DNA from: Sulfurimonas paralvinellae
GTDB lineage: Bacteria > Campylobacterota > Campylobacteria > Campylobacterales > Sulfurimonadaceae
Assembly (NCBI RefSeq): GCF_014905135.1
Contig: NZ_CP041406.1
Location: 744,001-808,000 of the forward strand
Direction of reading: 5' to 3'
DNA: 64,000 nucleotides
Below, in pieces: positions 11,015-60,343 of the stretch. Under the pieces are notes generated by a model. That model did not search any database, was not told the DNA's origin, and saw nothing but the letters and a program-made list of their open reading frames with translations. Position 1 is the stretch's first letter, and each line of letters opens with the position of its first letter. The position numbers were made by a program, and so were the translations under genes.

Positions 11015-13333
11015 ATGGGTAGAGGTTTTAAGGTCTTTGTAACAGGCATCACTTTAATAGCTGTTATCGTTGGTTTTTCATATATCTATACGATGCAGCG
11101 TGTTGATAGTATGACGGTTAAAAAGTATCTTGATATATCGCAGGAAATGCGTAGTGAACTCGAGTTGCTCATACAGGAAAAATCAGAAGCGGTTTTACTT
11201 GTCGGACTGACGCTCTCCCATGACAAAACAGTTAATACTCTTTTAAGAAGTAAAAAATACAATAAGTTACAGCTAGATAATCTGTCACGTTTACTGCAAA
11301 AATATACATCATTGAAAAATGTCTGGTTTCAGATTATAGATAAACATGGAACAAGTGTCTATCGTAGTTGGACATCAAAACATGGTGATAATCTCACTGA
11401 TTTTCGACTTGATGTCGCAAAAATGATACGCCTGCCGAAAGTAATGTCAACGATCAGTGTCGGAAAATTTGATATGACCTTTAAGTCGATGGTTCCGGTA
11501 TATGACAAATATGATAGATTCATAGGTATCATAGAAACACTTGCAAAATTTGACTCACTTGTTTCAAAACTAAAAATTAAAGGTTATGAAACTTTAATCA
11601 TTGTAGATAAACACTACAGGGATCAATTAACAGAATCTATCAGTAATGTTTTTGTGGATGATTATTATATTGCCAATCCTCAAGACAATGATACTCTTGT
11701 AAAGGCATTTCAAAACCATTTGATTGATCTCAACAGTGATACTTATCAGATTGACAAACAAGACGGTTATCTCTACACAGTTTTAAAAATCGATGGAATC
11801 GACAATCGGCCAATGGCATATTTTGTTATTTCGAAACCGTTGAGTGAAATTGATATGAGTGCTATCTATGAAACAAGAGATAATATTATAAAGACGCTCG
11901 TGCTTATTTCTATTTTTCTTCTTGTTTTGATATACATTATTTACAGCGTCAATTATAAAAAGTTTATTCAGCAGCAAAATGAGCTTTTAGAAGAAACGGT
12001 TGAAGAAAAAACCGAAGAGCTGCAAAAACAGAGTAAAAAGATGCAGTATCTTGCACACCACGATTCACTAACAGCCCTGCCAAATAAAAATCTTTTTTTA
12101 GACAGGCTCAAGCAGGCTATCAAACATGCAAAAAGACAGCACAACTCTTTGGGTGTGCTCTTTTTGGATCTTGATAGATTTAAAGAGATAAATGATACCT
12201 ATGGTCATGATGTCGGTGATGAACTGTTGCGACGCATCAGCCAAAGACTGCAGGAGATTGTCCGAGATGATGATACGGTTGCAAGAATCGGTGGTGATGA
12301 ATTTACCGTTATACTTCCAAATACGGACCAGGTCAATGTTGTTAAAGTTGTCGAGAAAATCTTTGAAGATATGAAAAGACCTTTTATCCTTTCTGGTGTT
12401 GATATTCATGCAACGTTCAGTGTCGGGATCAGTATCTATAAACAAGATGGGGAAACTCCGGATATCTTACTGAGAAATGCCGATACTGCAATGTATAAAG
12501 CAAAAGATAGCGGTAAAAATACGTACCAATTCTATAATCAACAGATGACAGAACTTGTGCGTAAACGTCTGCAGCTTGACACTGACATAAGAAACGGACT
12601 TAAGAATGGTGAATTTGAAGCATACTATCAACCGAAAATAGATGCGACAACTTTGAGAGTTGCAGGGCTTGAAGCCTTGATTCGATGGAATCATCCGACA
12701 AAAGGACTTTTGTACCCTGTTGAATTTATTCCGTTTGCAGAGGAGATAGGCCTTATCACGGAGATAGATCAATATATGCTCACGCATTGTGTGAATCAGC
12801 TTGTTGAATGGGAAGCAGCAGGGTATCACACCGGTAAGTTATCTATTAATGTTTCTACGAAAAAACTTGAAAGTGACAATTTTAGAAGTGAGTTGTACCG
12901 TCTTATCGAAAAAAGCAGAGTGAACACCGATCTGCTTGAGTTAGAGATACTTGAGAGCCAGATCATGCGAGATCCTGAGCACTCTATCGATATTTTACGT
13001 TCGGTAAGAAGTTTAGGCATATCGATTTCTATTGATGATTTTGGAACGGGTTACTCGTCACTCTCATACCTCAAAAAACTGCCGGTTTCAAAATTGAAAA
13101 TTGATCGCAGTTTCATCATTGATGTGCCTGAAGATGAAGATGATGTCGCCATTGTAAGAACGATTATATCACTGGCAAAAAATCTCAAACTGGAGATCAT
13201 TGCAGAAGGTGTTGAGACTGAAGGACAGGTGGAATTTTTAGTTCAAGAAGGCTGTCGCAATATTCAAGGTTACTACTACTCAAAAGCGCTTACAAAAACC
13301 GAGTGTGAAGCGTTTATGAAGAAACACGGATAA
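11015..13333 (+). CDS. Cache-GGDEF-EAL cyclic-di-GMP enzyme
   Basis: The protein has 772 residues. TM1 lies at about 8-26, a periplasmic double-Cache-like sensor at about 30-290, TM2 at about 292-312, a short coiled coil, a GGDEF domain at about 345-510, and an EAL domain at about 525-770. The diguanylate cyclase site is intact (GGDEF at residues 426-430) with an RxxD inhibitory site (RDDD) just before it. The phosphodiesterase site also looks intact (EAL at 553-555, NVS, DDFGTGYSS, KIDRSF, AEGVET). Both activities are therefore possible. The periplasmic part resembles the stand-alone sensor at 29963-31057 (for example VPVY followed by FIG, then YYIANPQ against YILANRN). Confidence 0.88.
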   Translation: MGRGFKVFVTGITLIAVIVGFSYIYTMQRVDSMTVKKYLDISQEMRSELELLIQEKSEAVLLVGLTLSHDKTVNTLLRSKKYNKLQLDNLSRLLQKYTSLKNVWFQIIDKHGTSVYRSWTSKHGDNLTDFRLDVAKMIRLPKVMSTISVGKFDMTFKSMVPVYDKYDRFIGIIETLAKFDSLVSKLKIKGYETLIIVDKHYRDQLTESISNVFVDDYYIANPQDNDTLVKAFQNHLIDLNSDTYQIDKQDGYLYTVLKIDGIDNRPMAYFVISKPLSEIDMSAIYETRDNIIKTLVLISIFLLVLIYIIYSVNYKKFIQQQNELLEETVEEKTEELQKQSKKMQYLAHHDSLTALPNKNLFLDRLKQAIKHAKRQHNSLGVLFLDLDRFKEINDTYGHDVGDELLRRISQRLQEIVRDDDTVARIGGDEFTVILPNTDQVNVVKVVEKIFEDMKRPFILSGVDIHATFSVGISIYKQDGETPDILLRNADTAMYKAKDSGKNTYQFYNQQMTELVRKRLQLDTDIRNGLKNGEFEAYYQPKIDATTLRVAGLEALIRWNHPTKGLLYPVEFIPFAEEIGLITEIDQYMLTHCVNQLVEWEAAGYHTGKLSINVSTKKLESDNFRSELYRLIEKSRVNTDLLELEILESQIMRDPEHSIDILRSVRSLGISISIDDFGTGYSSLSYLKKLPVSKLKIDRSFIIDVPEDEDDVAIVRTIISLAKNLKLEIIAEGVETEGQVEFLVQEGCRNIQGYYYSKALTKTECEAFMKKHG

Positions 13334-44411: not shown

Positions 44412-46738
<2,327 letters not shown>

Positions 46739-46750
46739 TTATAGCTAATT

Positions 46751-48424
46751 TTACTGAAGAGTTTTGAGTGGTGGTGAAAAATAGTAGCCTTGTGAATACT
46801 CTATGCCGAGTTCGAGAACAATATCTTGTACATCCTTGGAATGAACATACTCAGCAATTATTTTCGCACCGATGCTTTTGCCAAATTCACTGATCGTTTT
46901 TGCCACGGTGTAACTTTTTTCATTGTTGTAAATATTTTTAATGAAACTGCCGTCTATTTTAATAAAATCAACATGCATAGCATGTACTCTTTCAAAGTTC
47001 GAGTTTTGAACGCCAAAATCATCGATAGCTATCTTAAAGCCATTTGCTTTGAGATCCAGCAGCTGTTCCATACTTTTCTTTGCACCGATGGCACTTATAC
47101 CTTCAAGTACCTCAATGACGATTCGTGAAGCATCGATGCCATATTTCTTAAGTTTTTTCTCTAGATATTTATGTAAGTATCCGTCATTAAGATCATATTC
47201 ACTTATGTTGATGGAAAATTCATAATCGTTGTGCTGAAACATTTGAAATGATTTGTCTATCATAATTCGTGTAATGTCGGGAATCATTCCTGTCATTTCT
47301 GCAATGTCTATGAAGTTAAGCGGTGATTGTACTTCACCGCTGTCATCTACAATTCTGGCAAGACATTCATATTTTTCAATTGTTTGTGTCTCATTGTTGA
47401 CAATAGGCTGAAAATAAGGAACTATATATTTTTTTGCGATGATTTTTCTAAGTTTTGGCATATACTCTTGAATTTTCAACTGCAAAAGCTCGATAGGAGA
47501 ATTTTTTTGATAGATATTTATGCGGTTTTTTCCGATCTGCTGTGCTTCTTTTAATGCGATATGGGCATTTTTCAGCAGACAGTCGTCGCCTTCGGTTATG
47601 GCTATAGTTATGGTGATTTTCATAGACAATTTATTAACATTGATTTTATGATGAGAGATCTCATCTTGCACTATTTTTGCAAAGTCATTCATCTCACTCA
47701 CTGTTTTGTCAAAAGAGATGATGGCAAACTCATTGGAGTTGACTCTATAGAGTTTCGCCTCTTTGGGAATTCTTGATTTTAAGAAATTTGCAACCTCTTG
47801 AAGCAGACGATCGCCGTTGTCATAGCCGTAAGCGATGTTTATATGATCAAAGTTATCGATGCTGATAAGCAGCAGTACCCGGTTTTTGTTTTTTTCGTTG
47901 GAGAGTTTTACAAGGGCATTTCTGTTAAGAAGTCCCGTTAATTCATCAGTGATGAGTTGATGGGAGAGTTTAGCGGTTTTCTCTTCAAGCTCTCGTTCGA
48001 GTTCCTCTTTGTATCTTTGAGATATATTTTGTGCATAGATTAGATTTGATACTTTTGTCAAAACAAGTTTCAATTGCTCCATTTGAACAGGTTTGATGAT
48101 GAAATTGTCAATGCCGAGATTTATTGCCTGCAGCAGATATTCAGAATCATTGTGTGCAGAGATGACAACAATAGCCTGTGCAGGATTGAGTGTTTTGATT
48201 CTCTGTGCCAATTCTATACCGTTCATTCTCGGCATATTAATATCGGTGAGAATAATATCATACTCTTTCATTTGATATTTCTGAAGGGCGTCTTCGCCGT
48301 CAAATGCTGTATCTAACGAGTGAAAAAGGAGTTTGAAAATTTCGCTGAGCTGCTCTCTTGACTCTTTTTCATCTTCGACATACAGTACATCAAGTTTATT
48401 TGTGAATTCTTTTAACTTTTTCAT
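46751..48424 (-). CDS. Receiver-GGDEF(degenerate)-EAL protein
   Basis: The protein has 557 residues. A receiver domain (about 10-125; VLYVEDEKES, ILTDINMPRMNG, KPV) is followed by a GGDEF-type domain (about 160-310) in which the active site is changed to RVNSNEF, so it should not make cyclic-di-GMP. The EAL domain (about 325-557) has YECLARI in place of EAL but keeps the glutamate, as well as NISEYDL, IAIDDFG, KIDGSF and AEY, and is probably an active phosphodiesterase. It is the last gene of the four-gene signalling operon and starts 2 bases after the phosphatase gene. Confidence 0.87.
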   Translation of the reverse strand: MKKLKEFTNKLDVLYVEDEKESREQLSEIFKLLFHSLDTAFDGEDALQKYQMKEYDIILTDINMPRMNGIELAQRIKTLNPAQAIVVISAHNDSEYLLQAINLGIDNFIIKPVQMEQLKLVLTKVSNLIYAQNISQRYKEELERELEEKTAKLSHQLITDELTGLLNRNALVKLSNEKNKNRVLLLISIDNFDHINIAYGYDNGDRLLQEVANFLKSRIPKEAKLYRVNSNEFAIISFDKTVSEMNDFAKIVQDEISHHKINVNKLSMKITITIAITEGDDCLLKNAHIALKEAQQIGKNRINIYQKNSPIELLQLKIQEYMPKLRKIIAKKYIVPYFQPIVNNETQTIEKYECLARIVDDSGEVQSPLNFIDIAEMTGMIPDITRIMIDKSFQMFQHNDYEFSINISEYDLNDGYLHKYLEKKLKKYGIDASRIVIEVLEGISAIGAKKSMEQLLDLKANGFKIAIDDFGVQNSNFERVHAMHVDFIKIDGSFIKNIYNNEKSYTVAKTISEFGKSIGAKIIAEYVHSKDVQDIVLELGIEYSQGYYFSPPLKTLQ

Positions 48425-48426
48425 CT

Positions 48427-49599
48427 TTAGAAATCTCCCTGTAAACCTATATAAATATATGTTGTGTCATCATCCTGTGAAGTGCATACGGCCTCAAGTT
48501 TAGATTGAAATTCTTGAATATTCTTACTGGTTCTAAAATCTTTTTGCAGATATTGCATATAGAGTTCTTGAGAGCCATCAACACTGTTTTCATTGAGTCC
48601 GTCACTGTAGATAAGCATCTTTTGCAGTGGTTTTATGTCCAATGTATCTATTTGAAAATTTTTAGAATAAGATGTAAAAGGCGTGTTATTTGATTTTAAT
48701 TTCAAAACCTGACTTGAATCAAACATATATAATACTGGAGGCATGGAAAAGATGGCATATTCCATCTGCATTTTTGTTTTGTCAAAATATAAAAAACTTG
48801 CAGAGATTACTTCATACTCAAGCAGATTCGGTCCAATGAATTCTTGTAAATCTATTAAAAGTTGAGGAAGTGAGAAAGCTTTATCTTCTTTTGTGAGCAT
48901 ATCAATATGATAGTTGACAAAAGCACTGCTGAGCATTGCCGATACAGATGCTGAGATGCCTTTTCCCATGCCGTCTACAAGAAAAATAAGATAATTCTCC
49001 GCATTGATTTTTTTAATGACATAGCTGTCTCCACTGAGAATGTCTTTGGGTTGATAGAAAACATCACAGGAAAGATGCAGCAGCTTTTTGCTTTCTTGCA
49101 GATCATTTTTGACAATGGTCTGTTCTTTTTCGAAAGTGAGGTTCTCCTGGTATTGACTATAAAGTATCTGCTCTTCCTGCTCTTTCATCATGCATCTGTC
49201 GGCAATGACAGATTTTGATACCAAATGAAAGGTTCTGAAAAGTTCTGTAGATGTAAAAGGTTTTTTTAAAAAACTGCTTATCTGCAGCTCGATCGCCTCA
49301 CGCAGTGTCTCTATGCTTTCAAGAGCAGTCACTAAAATTATAGGTACGGATGCATCGATCTCTCGAATAGCTTTGCTCATCTCCAAGCCATTGCATATGG
49401 GCATCATATTATCTGTGAGAATGATATCGATCTTCTCGTTTTTAAAACACTCCAGACCCTCTTTGCCATTTTTTGCAAAATAAACTTTTTGAAATAGAGG
49501 TGAGAAGAGAGAGACATAGCTGTCCAAGATTGTTTCATCATCTTCGACACAAAGAATGTTCAATGTTTTGGATATTTTCGCGAAGTAACTATTTTTCAT
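48427..49599 (-). CDS. Receiver-PP2C (SpoIIE/RsbU-type) serine phosphatase
   Basis: The protein has 390 residues from the ATG at 49599, just before the receiver domain (LNILCVEDDETILDS); an upstream in-frame start at 49638 lies deep in the kinase gene. The receiver (about 10-125) has ILTDNMMPICNG and FLKKPF. A linker helix leads to the PP2C-type domain (about 190-390), with DVFYQPKDILSGDSY, LVDGMGKGISASVSA and LIYSDGLNE. The acidic metal ligands are present. Such phosphatases act on STAS-domain proteins in partner switching; a STAS-like protein is encoded at the start of this operon. The gene overlaps the kinase gene by 11 bases. Confidence 0.87.
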   Translation of the reverse strand: MKNSYFAKISKTLNILCVEDDETILDSYVSLFSPLFQKVYFAKNGKEGLECFKNEKIDIILTDNMMPICNGLEMSKAIREIDASVPIILVTALESIETLREAIELQISSFLKKPFTSTELFRTFHLVSKSVIADRCMMKEQEEQILYSQYQENLTFEKEQTIVKNDLQESKKLLHLSCDVFYQPKDILSGDSYVIKKINAENYLIFLVDGMGKGISASVSAMLSSAFVNYHIDMLTKEDKAFSLPQLLIDLQEFIGPNLLEYEVISASFLYFDKTKMQMEYAIFSMPPVLYMFDSSQVLKLKSNNTPFTSYSKNFQIDTLDIKPLQKMLIYSDGLNENSVDGSQELYMQYLQKDFRTSKNIQEFQSKLEAVCTSQDDDTTYIYIGLQGDF

Positions 49600-51904
49600 T
49601 TTCAATGTCCATAATAATGGTAAATTCGGCACCGTCATTGTAGTTGCGTACGAAAATATCTCCGCTTAAATGTTCCTGTAGTATCTTCTTGCTCATGTAT
49701 AAACCAAGTCCGGTACCTTTGTTTGTCTCTTTTGTTGTGAAGTAGGGCTCAAAAATTCTGTTGATGATAGATTCATCTATACCGCCTGCATTGTCGGCTA
49801 TCTTTATGACAAAAAGTTTCTCTTTTGTGTAGGCTTTGATATTGATCTCTTTGTCCTTGTCTTTGATATTTTCAAGTGCATCTCTTGCATTGGCAATTAT
49901 ATTTATAAGGATATGCTCTAACTCTTTTTTGTAGGTGTAGAGAGCATTCTCTTTTTCAATATCTATATTGACCGTAATATTGTGATTTTCAAGCTGTGTG
50001 CCGATGATTTGAAAGATATCATTAAATATTTCGTCAAAAACGATCCTCTCTTTTTTATTGGTGGATTTTGTAAAGTTCATAAAATCATTGATGGTTTGTG
50101 ACATCCTTTGGGTGACATTCTCAATGAACTTCGAGGTACTCTCTATCTCATTTTCTGTCAATATGCCCATCTCATTTTGCATAGAGAGTTTTATGGCTGC
50201 GGCACTGATGGCATTTAAAGGCTGTCTCCATTGGTGGGCGACCATGTTGATCATTTCTCCCATCTGCGCAGATTTTGACTGCTGTATCAAAAGGGCATCC
50301 TGCATTCTTATATCTGTTAGATCCAAGATCGTTCCAATGATCTTTACGGGTTTGTTTTGATTAAAGACTATTTTTCCGCTTATAAGAATATGCAGAATCG
50401 TATCGTCTTTTCCTTTCATTCTAATTTCTAGAGAATGAATCTCTCCATCCAAGAGTATCTTTTTTGTCTGAAGTAGTTTTTTTCTGTCTTCTTTGACGAC
50501 CATATGAAAGAGTTTAAAGTAACTTGGCACACCATTAGATGGATCTATATTAAAGATTTTGTAGTTCATGTTTGACCATGAAATCTTCATAGTCGAGAGA
50601 TCTAGTTCCCAGTGTCCCAGATTTGCCATTTCTCCAACAGCATCCAAAGTAGCAGTCTTGGCTTCAAGCTCATCATTTATCTTTTTTTGAAAAACTGTCT
50701 GTAAATGAAGTTCTTGCGAAGTAACATCGAGAATGTGGCGCAGTGCCTGGAAAGTTCTGTCTGTCGTCGTTGTTTTCGAGGGTTGTTTTAGATGTGTTTT
50801 TTTTACTTTTTCAGGTGTTTCTGAGAGGGCTACTGCTGTGAGTGTCTGGTTTAAAAGTTCCGGTTTTTTATGTGTAAAAAACTCTCCATAGGTGAAAAAT
50901 CCGCTTGTTGGTGCCAATGCTGCAAAAGGTTCTATCTCTTCACCGATGCGATCCGGAAGAAAATGCCGCCGCGCCATACATGAGTAGATAAAAAAAGACT
51001 CCACATTGAGATGATGTGATCTTTGAAGTGGATTCGATAAAATAGTTTCAGCTTTGCCGATGCCGAGATAGACCTTTTCTCCTTCATTGAGATTACCGGC
51101 AAAACCAAGGCTTCCATCCTCATATTTTGAGGTGATAGCCCGTGCTTTTTTAAAGCCGTCTTTTTCAATAATGAGAGGAAATTCAATGCCTGTTTCAGGA
51201 AGTAAATTTGCAATTTCATCACCGAGATATTTTTTATAAAATGCTACAGCACTGATACCGTCAATAGTATAGACACGATTTTTTTTAGCTTTCGTAATAG
51301 TATGTTTTAAACCGATCGTCTGCCAGCCGAAACTGTAAAAATTATCTACCTGCAACTTATTTGAGTTGAGTACGATAGCAACAGCTCCTCTATCATAAAG
51401 TTTGCTATTTATGCCGACATAACATTTTTGGAACTTGGCATTGTCACCTGTTAAGCCTCCTGCAACGACCAGATCTGCATTGACAGACCCAATGCCGTTT
51501 AAAAACTCTTCTCCATTACAGTGAAGACCATTTGCAAAAGTGATAAGAAGTTTTGTATTTTCACAACTCAGTTTTTCTGCCAGTTCTCGTCCTGCATCAA
51601 AACTTTCTATTTCTTTAGTGTAAGCGATCTCTATTGTAGTATCTGTAAAAGTTGAAATAGCAGCAACACTACTTTCTGTAAGTACCGACTCATTTGCGAT
51701 CTCTCCGTCTGTTGAGGCAGTTATAATAGTGGCTTTTGGAAATGTTGTAGATAAATAGTCTAAAATCTGTTCGATCCGTTTTTCATCTTCTCCTGAAAAA
51801 AGTTGTATAAGTATAGAAAAAGCGCTATCTATCTCTTCTTTTTCATTTATGTTAATAATATCAAGTGTATCTTGTTTGTTAAAAACATAGATTCTGGTTT
51901 GCAT
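49589..51904 (-). CDS. FIST-PAS sensor histidine kinase
   Basis: The protein has 771 residues and is probably cytoplasmic, without TM helices. A FIST N/C sensor (about 25-370; VVAGGLTGDNAKFQKCYVG and EEIEPFAALAPTSGFFTYGEF) is followed by a PAS fold (about 410-540), then HisKA with MINMVAHQWRQPLNAI and HATPase c with NIIANARDALEN, DNAGGIDES and TKETNKGTGLGLYMSKK. FIST domains are thought to bind small ligands such as amino acids or derivatives. The target is probably the receiver of the phosphatase or of the EAL protein downstream. Confidence 0.88.
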   Translation of the reverse strand: MQTRIYVFNKQDTLDIININEKEEIDSAFSILIQLFSGEDEKRIEQILDYLSTTFPKATIITASTDGEIANESVLTESSVAAISTFTDTTIEIAYTKEIESFDAGRELAEKLSCENTKLLITFANGLHCNGEEFLNGIGSVNADLVVAGGLTGDNAKFQKCYVGINSKLYDRGAVAIVLNSNKLQVDNFYSFGWQTIGLKHTITKAKKNRVYTIDGISAVAFYKKYLGDEIANLLPETGIEFPLIIEKDGFKKARAITSKYEDGSLGFAGNLNEGEKVYLGIGKAETILSNPLQRSHHLNVESFFIYSCMARRHFLPDRIGEEIEPFAALAPTSGFFTYGEFFTHKKPELLNQTLTAVALSETPEKVKKTHLKQPSKTTTTDRTFQALRHILDVTSQELHLQTVFQKKINDELEAKTATLDAVGEMANLGHWELDLSTMKISWSNMNYKIFNIDPSNGVPSYFKLFHMVVKEDRKKLLQTKKILLDGEIHSLEIRMKGKDDTILHILISGKIVFNQNKPVKIIGTILDLTDIRMQDALLIQQSKSAQMGEMINMVAHQWRQPLNAISAAAIKLSMQNEMGILTENEIESTSKFIENVTQRMSQTINDFMNFTKSTNKKERIVFDEIFNDIFQIIGTQLENHNITVNIDIEKENALYTYKKELEHILINIIANARDALENIKDKDKEINIKAYTKEKLFVIKIADNAGGIDESIINRIFEPYFTTKETNKGTGLGLYMSKKILQEHLSGDIFVRNYNDGAEFTIIMDIENEK

Positions 51905-51918
51905 TCTAGATCTTCATT

Positions 51919-52218
51919 CTATTTAGATGCAGCTGTAATATGTTGTACCTGTAAAATTTGAAGAAGATTCAAATCGTCCAATAAGTCATGCAGTTCTTTA
52001 TCTGTAACATGAAGTTCGATATTATGCCCCATATCCCTTAATTTACATAAATATCCTATGACAGAAGATGTGATAGAGATAGAGTCTAAGAGATGGATAC
52101 TAATATGATCAAAATCTTTGGTCATCTTATTGAGTTCATTTGCCAATATTTGAAAATGAGAAACACTTTTAATATTGCCGGATATGGTTAGAGTATTGTT
52201 TGACGATGAAATATTCAT
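51919..52218 (-). CDS. STAS-domain protein (anti-anti-sigma factor-like)
   Basis: The protein has 99 residues. The fold pattern matches SpoIIAA-type STAS: strand LTISGNIK, ISIHLLDSISITSSVIGYLCKL with the serine-rich phosphorylation loop, and IELHVTDKELHDLLDDLNLLQIL. It is the first gene of the operon, 14 bases before the FIST kinase. It is likely to be the substrate of the PP2C phosphatase, but no anti-sigma kinase (RsbW-like) is visible nearby. Similarity is moderate. Confidence 0.7.
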   Translation of the reverse strand: MNISSSNNTLTISGNIKSVSHFQILANELNKMTKDFDHISIHLLDSISITSSVIGYLCKLRDMGHNIELHVTDKELHDLLDDLNLLQILQVQHITAASK

Positions 52219-52323
52219 TTTAATCCCCTGTTATTACTTGTTATTTCATATTACACCTATTATACTTAATTTTTTTTTAAATACTTGTTATATCCTTTAT
52301 TTTGTAAGTAAATTGCTACATAA

Positions 52324-52350
52324 AATGTTCTAGTGTGCCATTAGAACATT
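52324..52350. promoter_or_regulatory. Inverted repeat between the signalling operon and efp
   Basis: AATGTTCTA and TAGAACATT form a perfect 9-bp inverted repeat with a 9-base spacer. It lies 51 bases before the efp ATG and about 106 bases upstream of the STAS start, between two divergent transcripts. It could be an operator or an mRNA leader hairpin for efp. A -10-like TAAAAT follows at 52367. Confidence 0.45.
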
Positions 52351-52400
52351 CTAAGCACTTTTATTGTAAAATCATTCAAAATATTTTTAAAGGTGTATTA

Positions 52401-52967
52401 ATGGCAACTATCGGTATGGGTGATATTAAAAAGAACATTCGTTTGGAAGTAAATGGCGTTCCTTATAAAGTAGTGGAATTTCAACACGTAAAACCTGGAA
52501 AAGGTGCAGCGTTCGTTCGCATGAAGATTAAAAGTTTTTTAAATGGAAAAGTTGTTGAAAAGACTGTTCACGCAGGTGATAAATTTGAAGTACCTGAGAT
52601 CACATATAAAACGATGCAGTATCTTTATGATGACGGTGAGATGTACCAGTTCATGGACAATGACACATACGATCAACTCGGACTTTCGTATGAGCAGTGT
52701 GATGATGCTTCAAAATGGTTCAAAGACGGTATCAATGTAGATATCGTATTTTACAAAGGGGAAGCGATCTCTGTTCAGGCTCCGGAAGTTATGGAGTTCG
52801 TTATTGCAGAAACACCACCAAACTTCAAAGGTGATACATCAAGCGGAAGCAAAAAACCTGCGACATTGGAAAGTGGTGCGGTAGTTCAAGTACCATACCA
52901 TGTTCTTGAAGGTGATACTATAAAAGTTAATACAGTTGACGGTGAGTATTTAGAAAAAGTAAAATAA
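52401..52967 (+). CDS. efp: Elongation factor P
   Basis: EF-P rescues ribosomes stalled at polyproline. The 188-residue protein starts at the ATG at 52401 ([15 protein letters not shown]) with AAAGGTG upstream; an earlier in-frame start at 52335 would pass through the inverted repeat and is rejected. The functional loop [12 protein letters not shown] has the lysine that is normally modified. The three KOW/OB domains are complete, ending in GEYLEKVK. Confidence 0.95.
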
Positions 52968-59359: not shown

Positions 59360-60343
59360 ATGGCTGCGATCACCCCCGAAGAGCTGAACCTTTTAATAGA
59401 ACAGACCTATAAGGTAGAAAATGAGTTTAATGAGCTTAAGGCTTCTTATGCCCATCTGCAGGATACTGTAGAAAAAGTTGTGGAGTTCCTGCCAAATGCT
59501 GTGTGGATCTTGCATAAAGAAGATGAAACCGTTTTTTTACAGAACTCTCACGCAAGAGATTTGTGGCAGCTGCTAAAGCTTCTTGAGTATAAAGAAGAAG
59601 ATTATGAAATTAAGTTCAACGACCACTCTTTTCTCATTAAAAGTTCAGCCTATCAAGATAAACTGATGCTCTCAGCCATCGATATAACAGAACAAAAGAG
59701 AAAAGAGAATCTTGCGACCATGGGGCAGATGGCGGCACATCTTTCTCATGAGATACGTAATCCTATCGGTGCTATCTCTTTGATGAGCTCAACACTGAAA
59801 AAACGTGTTATTCCTGAAAATATACCGATTGTCGAAGAGATTCAAAGATCAGTACACAGAATAGAGCGTATCATAAAAGCAACGTTGATGTTTTCAAAAG
59901 GTGTAGAAGCTCATAAAAAAGAGTTTTTATGGAGTGAATTAAGAGAATCTCTCAATTTGTCGATAGATTACTATGGATATGCCAAAGAGATTACATTTAT
60001 TTTTCCGGATGAAGATTTTAAGCTCAATGGTGATAAAGATCTCTTGGAGATGCTCTTTTCAAATTTCATTGCCAATGCCATCGATGCTATCGAAGCAGAT
60101 GATAATGAAGAGGGTGTTGTTGAGATCCGTCATGAAAAAGAGGGAAAAAAGCATATCTTTTTCATCTATGACAGTGGTGTAGCCATAGAGAATGAAAAAG
60201 AGCTCTTTGAGGCCTTTAAAAGTACAAAGGTCAAAGGCAATGGGCTAGGGCTTGTACTCTCACGTCAGATAGCTGAAGCACACAATGGAACAGTTTCATT
60301 GTGTGACGGTTTAAAAAAATGTTTTAAAATTGTGATTGCATGA
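59360..60343 (+). CDS. flgS: Soluble sensor histidine kinase, FlgS-like
   Basis: The protein has 327 residues without TM helices. Residues 1-120 form a PAS-like module (KVVEFLPNAVWILHKEDETVFL), then HisKA with His130 in MGQMAAHLSHEIRNPIGAI, and HATPase c with LFSNFIANAIDAIEADD and TKVKGNGLGLVLSRQI. This size, the lack of TM helices and the N-terminal heptads (LIEQTYKVENEFNELKASY) resemble FlgS, the kinase of the FlgSR system that activates sigma-54 flagellar genes in Campylobacter and Helicobacter. No flgR gene is in the window. The identification as flgS is from family resemblance, not a full alignment. Confidence 0.65.
   Translation: MAAITPEELNLLIEQTYKVENEFNELKASYAHLQDTVEKVVEFLPNAVWILHKEDETVFLQNSHARDLWQLLKLLEYKEEDYEIKFNDHSFLIKSSAYQDKLMLSAIDITEQKRKENLATMGQMAAHLSHEIRNPIGAISLMSSTLKKRVIPENIPIVEEIQRSVHRIERIIKATLMFSKGVEAHKKEFLWSELRESLNLSIDYYGYAKEITFIFPDEDFKLNGDKDLLEMLFSNFIANAIDAIEADDNEEGVVEIRHEKEGKKHIFFIYDSGVAIENEKELFEAFKSTKVKGNGLGLVLSRQIAEAHNGTVSLCDGLKKCFKIVIA

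Follow-up and report, generated by a model that had tools for sequence, protein, structure and literature searches.

Four co-directional genes on the minus strand of the genome of the sulfur-oxidizing bacterium Sulfurimonas paralvinellae, encoding a STAS protein, a FIST-PAS-HisKA-HATPase histidine kinase, a REC-PP2C (SpoIIE) phosphatase and a REC-GGDEF-EAL protein with a degenerate GGDEF domain, form what we consider, on balance, to be probably a branched two-component and partner-switching operon under one FIST-PAS kinase. According to the proposed mechanism, this soluble kinase would respond, via its NosP-like FIST region, to a small molecule in the cytoplasm, for which nitric oxide (NO) is the most likely candidate, and would phosphorylate, or act as a phosphatase on, two co-encoded receivers. 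The first receiver would set EAL activity and hence the breakdown of c-di-GMP, while the second would set PP2C activity and hence dephosphorylation of the STAS protein at Ser51. The counteracting Ser kinase would be non-local, with the RsbW-like domain fused to the PP2C of a paralogous STAS-NIT chemoreceptor operon as the best candidate, and free STAS protein would act on RsbW or on another target; if this kinase is shared, one partner switch would receive both the FIST input and a periplasmic input of the nitrate/nitrite type. This reading draws on features seen directly in the genomes compared, i.e., the genes present, the intact state of their catalytic motifs, family relationships and a pattern of co-loss.

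Layout and domain content of the operon

The operon is located between efp and tgt in a host genome of 2.08 Mb, the named relatives of which are Sulfurimonas. Within the window, i.e., the whole stretch of 64,000 nucleotides that was analyzed, the relevant features are as follows.

45599..46717, minus strand: tgt (tRNA-guanine transglycosylase), the conserved downstream flank, which fixes locus orthology
46751..48424, minus strand: REC-GGDEF-EAL protein, 557 aa (Pfam and motifs)
48427..49599, minus strand: REC-PP2C phosphatase of the SpoIIE type, 390 aa with the ATG at 49599 as start (Pfam and motifs)
49589..51904, minus strand: FIST-FIST_C-PAS-HisKA-HATPase soluble histidine kinase, 771 aa (Pfam and motifs)
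51919..52218, minus strand: STAS protein, 99 aa, RsbV/SpoIIAA fold (signature DSISITSSVIG)
52219..52400, no strand: divergent intergenic region separating the operon from efp, putative operon promoter region
52335..52967, plus strand: efp (elongation factor P), ATG at about 52401, the conserved upstream flank

The intergenic region at 52219..52400 probably holds the operon promoter. The STAS and kinase genes are separated by 14 nt and the PP2C and EAL genes by 2 nt. PP2C probably starts with the ATG at 49599, in which case its gene overlaps that of the kinase by 11 nt; with the listed start at 49638, the overlap would be 50 nt. Coordinates, domains and junctions all agree with the original observation of four same-strand genes with tiny gaps or overlaps, and the arrangement is not due to chance, as the same four genes, with junctions of 11, -8 and 2 nt and identical flanking genes, are found at a second locus (L084). 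No Rfam or tRNA features were found in the window. Outside the operon, the window also encodes a short soluble histidine kinase (59360-60343) and a second GGDEF-EAL protein of 772 aa (ORF starting at 11015).

With regard to the two receiver proteins, Pfam matches were to Response_reg (6e-23) and SpoIIE/PP2C (2e-15) for 48427-49638, and to Response_reg (5e-27), GGDEF (1e-22) and EAL (3e-58) for 46751-48424. Both receivers retain D, T/S and K, with D76 and K126 intact in REC-PP2C (403-aa numbering), and the PP2C motifs GDSY, DGMGKG, SDG and DD are intact as well; a Pfam search identified no RsbW-like domain (HATPase_c_2) in the window PP2C. The GGDEF domain is dead, as had been proposed, with a signature that reads NSNEF instead. 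The metal-binding and catalytic motifs of the EAL domain are mostly intact (ECLAR, INIS, EVLE, DDFG, KIDG, AEYVH and SQG); however, EAL activity is not certain, because His replaces the second Glu of the AEGVE motif common in active EAL domains and loop 6 is unusual.

The FIST kinase and its signal

The kinase (49589-51904) matched Pfam FIST (2e-43), FIST_C (7e-22), PAS_3, HisKA and HATPase_c, and its H-box (AHQWRQPLN), N-box and GTGLGL motif are all intact; no relative of this kinase was found on viral contigs. In NosP, which partners with kinases and c-di-GMP regulators, FIST serves as the NO-sensing domain (PMC12570481, PMC8846402), and NO or a similar small molecule is probably the signal of the kinase. 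The host genome encodes a NirS-type cytochrome d1 (cytochrome cd1 nitrite reductase), indicating that the cell can make NO, and the FIST region contains a conserved candidate heme-ligand residue, His201, which aligns with Gln in two relatives. NO is nevertheless the leading rather than the established signal, since the FIST region scored 67.7 bits against the NCBIfam NosP model, i.e., below the equivalog cut-off of 450, and since co-occurrence of the FIST kinase with NirS across the genus was not significant (13/15 versus 75/120; p 0.085).

These same two results favor sensing of a ligand other than NO, such as free heme, an amino acid or another metabolite, a reading to which we give a nearly even chance. 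For CdpA, a link between FIST and heme sensing has been described (PMC8846402), and the FIST model is closest to FBXO22 and to cyclic amide hydrolase/chorismatase folds, with no sequence relative of FIST in the PDB. Against a ligand other than NO, the FIST-kinase systems characterized in the literature that we found are those of NosP with kinases and c-di-GMP regulators, and NO production is encoded in the genome. Two further FIST proteins are encoded in the same genome, including one hybrid-kinase-like protein with a receiver (L052:8591-11692) and one FIST-GGDEF cyclase (L053:7237-8916).

The STAS protein, its output and its counter-kinase

The window STAS protein has no direct match in Pfam or NCBIfam, while a close relative weakly matched the Pfam STAS and NCBIfam anti-anti-sigma models. 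Given the absent Pfam match, the STAS fold of this 99-aa protein was assigned by structural match; the closest match of its AlphaFold model (pLDDT 90) was to RsbV in the RsbV/RsbW complex, with Z 12.4 and an rmsd of 1.9 across 92 residues, and the model also resembled RsfB and SpoIIAA. The residues TS at positions 50-51 are invariant, making Ser51 the candidate phospho-site, which we take to be the equivalent of SpoIIAA Ser58. Searching PDB sequences with the profile of the STAS protein yielded viral coiled coils only, which were dismissed as coincidental, and the slr1659 lead, a weak match of a paralogue in NCBIfam, did not yield useful literature.

A scan with the STAS family picked up 80 named loci, 78 of which had a called STAS ORF. 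A PP2C and an RsbW-like domain were present in the same run at 63 of these 78 loci, together with a chemoreceptor in 51 of the 63 runs, and family loci extend to Nitrospirae, Geobacteraceae and Deferribacteraceae; the N, G1 and G2 boxes were intact in the RsbW domains sampled. This family context strongly backs the proposal that STAS and PP2C form a partner-switching pair, for which the operon encodes both an RsbV-type component (a STAS fold with Ser) and an RsbU-type component (a SpoIIE-type PP2C with intact metal motifs). At two other loci (L148:1138-3406 and L149:5972-8240), a divergent STAS gene adjoins a chemoreceptor that has a different sensor, and PP2C is absent.

As for the output of the switch, the genome encodes only two sigma70 region-2 proteins, one of RpoD size and one of FliA size, the latter adjoining flhF/fliM-like genes. 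Because a dedicated SigB, SigF or RpoS-type sigma factor is absent from the genome, FliA/FlgM or a non-sigma target, such as a cyclase or the chemoreceptor, is likelier; FliA/FlgM is the output linked to HsbA, and phosphorylated HsbA also binds the cyclase HsbD (PMC6482189). It is conceivable, though rather doubtful, that the STAS protein is a direct effector on c-di-GMP enzymes in the style of SiaC-SiaD or phospho-HsbA-HsbD, with the PP2C and EAL arms both tuning c-di-GMP. The small set of sigma factors, the HsbA-HsbD precedent, the 42 GGDEF domains encoded in the genome and the match of the STAS model to SiaC (Z 9.3) and to SiaC of the SiaD-SiaC complex (Z 9.0) are consistent with such a role, but both SiaC matches rank below those to RsbV and RsfB, and the family context ties the STAS protein to RsbW-like kinases and chemoreceptors and to no particular cyclase. 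A STAS protein that acts on cyclases would be compatible with the upstream part of the branched operon model.

The observation that no RsbW-type kinase is visible holds for the operon but not for the genome, as an RsbW-like domain at C1:149054-149482 is the only notable HATPase_c_2 match in the genome that does not belong to a histidine kinase. The STAS - NIT chemoreceptor - PP2C-RsbW operon concerned (L051:5948-9501, i.e., C1:145.9-149.5 kb) is widespread in Sulfurimonas and relatives; operons of this type, with PP2C-RsbW or REC-PP2C-RsbW, were found across Campylobacterota among relatives seeded by REC-PP2C, and no literature on a chemoreceptor-linked partner switch of this type was found. 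The window clade of the PP2C tree (98/98) is nested among RsbW-bearing PP2Cs, and one of its members (L039) retains RsbW, suggesting that the window PP2C probably lost its RsbW domain. In the STAS tree, the tgt-efp STAS groups with a Nautiliaceae copy (L036), the run of which contains a NIT-MCP, a separate RsbW, a REC-PP2C and a REC-GGDEF-EAL protein.

The RsbW-like domain of the NIT chemoreceptor operon is hence our best candidate for the STAS Ser kinase. The phospho-site motif is the same whether or not a STAS protein has a local RsbW, and a NIT-module STAS is present in all eight genomes with a tgt-locus STAS versus 79/127 others, a weak association (Fisher p 0.05) among related genomes that are not independent. 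Both of these findings argue against a different Ser kinase, or regulation of STAS by binding only, which we regard as unlikely. Such a different arrangement would fit the modest identity (about 45%) between the two STAS proteins of this family in the genome, i.e., the window and NIT-module proteins, as well as the absence of an RsbW domain from the window PP2C clade (L039 aside); another possible kinase is encoded at C1:573 kb (L105:538-2184), where the third PP2C of the genome is fused to a Ser/Thr protein kinase, but this kinase belongs to a different family.

Wiring, modularity and relation to known systems

Conservation of the four-gene order in relatives had been named as a check. Besides the window, the order is complete in one genome (L084/G352) and in no other, while two loci cut by contig ends fit it (L086, with STAS and kinase; L055/G363, with the end of STAS, kinase and PP2C). 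Other copies at the tgt-efp locus are partial. L097 has kinase, PP2C and tgt without REC-EAL; in L085/G357, the kinase and REC-EAL are intact, only a 15-codon remnant of PP2C is left and STAS no longer has its start or frame, although this is a MAG and the STAS end may reflect an assembly error; and L144, L146 and L152 contain STAS and REC-PP2C alone. About ten Sulfurimonas genomes have clusters of FIST kinase, REC-PP2C and REC-GGDEF-EAL elsewhere (group B); these are without STAS and often include a further receiver. Strict four-gene conservation across the genus was thus ruled out, with gene order being modular, and no part is obligate, since group B occurs without STAS and L097 without REC-EAL. 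The kinase with its two receivers and STAS with PP2C each represent a cohesive unit, making the window operon their union. In group B clusters, an extra receiver protein of about 462 aa (L093:1637-3025), the C-terminal region of which is unassigned, lies between REC-EAL and the FIST kinase. Genes for an outer-membrane protein with a Plug domain and for a 137-aa protein also recur beside REC-PP2C at several loci (L093:6493-10276, L095:6621-10373, L039:1269-4192 and L036:197-2409), usually with a membrane histidine kinase and with an adjacent REC-PP2C that may or may not carry RsbW.

The proposed pairing of one kinase with two receivers is borne out as a recurring unit, as the FIST kinase is adjoined by REC-PP2C in 12 of 13 testable loci and by REC-GGDEF-EAL in 13 of 14, and the receiver of REC-PP2C is predicted to be competent where the kinase is present and not where it is absent. 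D and K were kept at all 13 loci where an RsbW-less REC-PP2C occurs with a local kinase (12 genomes, with L084 and L160 being the same), while in all three kinase-less tgt-efp copies both the receiver D and K are replaced by R. This change from the phosphoacceptor Asp to Arg, which counts as one event because the three copies form one clade, is what loss of the phosphodonor predicts and thus supports, at the level of sequence, the local kinase as phosphodonor. Both signs of receiver control have precedents, with RsfR being inhibited (PMC10950880) and the HsbR phosphatase being activated (PMC6482189) by phosphorylation. Two independent modules that merely share a locus, with the FIST kinase acting on REC-EAL only and STAS-PP2C being constitutive or under another kinase, seem improbable, as the three genomes with STAS and REC-PP2C but neither kinase nor EAL and the retention of kinase and REC-EAL without PP2C in G357 are outweighed by a phosphoacceptor loss that would be unexpected if an outside kinase drove the receiver, by REC-PP2C lying beside the FIST kinase in group B too, and by the 11-nt overlap of the kinase and PP2C genes.

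A branched operon of this kind combines the logic of several described systems. NosP-NahK-NarR of Legionella and NosP-NosK-NosR of Burkholderia similarly link a FIST sensor and a kinase to c-di-GMP control through a receiver coupled to GGDEF-EAL or HD-GYP, comparable to the REC-GGDEF-EAL protein of the window (PMC8846402, PMC12570481); these systems, however, have FIST as a protein of its own and a single receiver, whereas the window FIST scores below the NosP cut-off, is fused to the PAS kinase and is accompanied by a PP2C receiver and STAS. RsfS-RsfR-RsfB of Mycobacterium smegmatis and RsbK-RsbY of Bacillus cereus share the path from a histidine kinase through a REC-PP2C without RsbW to an RsbV-type STAS (PMC10950880), but lack a c-di-GMP receiver and control SigF or SigB via a cognate RsbW, while the S. 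paralvinellae genome has no such sigma factor and RsbW is encoded elsewhere. HsbR-HsbA-HsbD of Pseudomonas aeruginosa, CrsR-CrsA of Shewanella and SypE-SypA of Vibrio fischeri also place a receiver and PP2C upstream of a STAS protein and have links to biofilm, motility or c-di-GMP (PMC6482189, PMC12826045); these carry REC, PP2C and RsbW in one protein, unlike the window PP2C, and are closer to a Sulfurimonas paralogue family of REC-PP2C-RsbW with STAS. Finally, the STAS and PP2C of the Campylobacterota NIT module are homologous to those of the window, and its Nautiliaceae copy (L036/L205) also has REC-PP2C and REC-GGDEF-EAL, but this module uses a membrane NIT chemoreceptor as input and includes RsbW, in contrast to the FIST kinase and RsbW-less operon of the window. 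The view that the make-up is undescribed therefore stands for the combination of FIST kinase, REC-EAL and REC-PP2C-STAS, of which no description was found in the literature searched, but not for its parts, which follow the NosP-NahK-NarR and RsfSR-RsfB logic. No described case of partner switching in Campylobacterota was found in the literature either.

A more speculative and rather unlikely extension is a nitrogen-oxide switch with two inputs, where the periplasmic NIT (nitrate/nitrite) chemoreceptor module would provide RsbW, the cytoplasmic FIST (NO) kinase would provide the phosphatase by way of its co-encoded receiver and adjust c-di-GMP, and denitrification intermediates would jointly set motility or attachment via a single STAS switch and a single second messenger. 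Natural "mutants", i.e., the kinase-less copies with dead receivers and the copy with decayed PP2C and STAS, make the wiring testable. If the branched operon model is true, one soluble sensor would govern a second messenger as well as a protein partner switch, which are usually studied apart, and partner switching in Campylobacterota would be tied to chemoreceptors and to nitrogen-oxide sensing.
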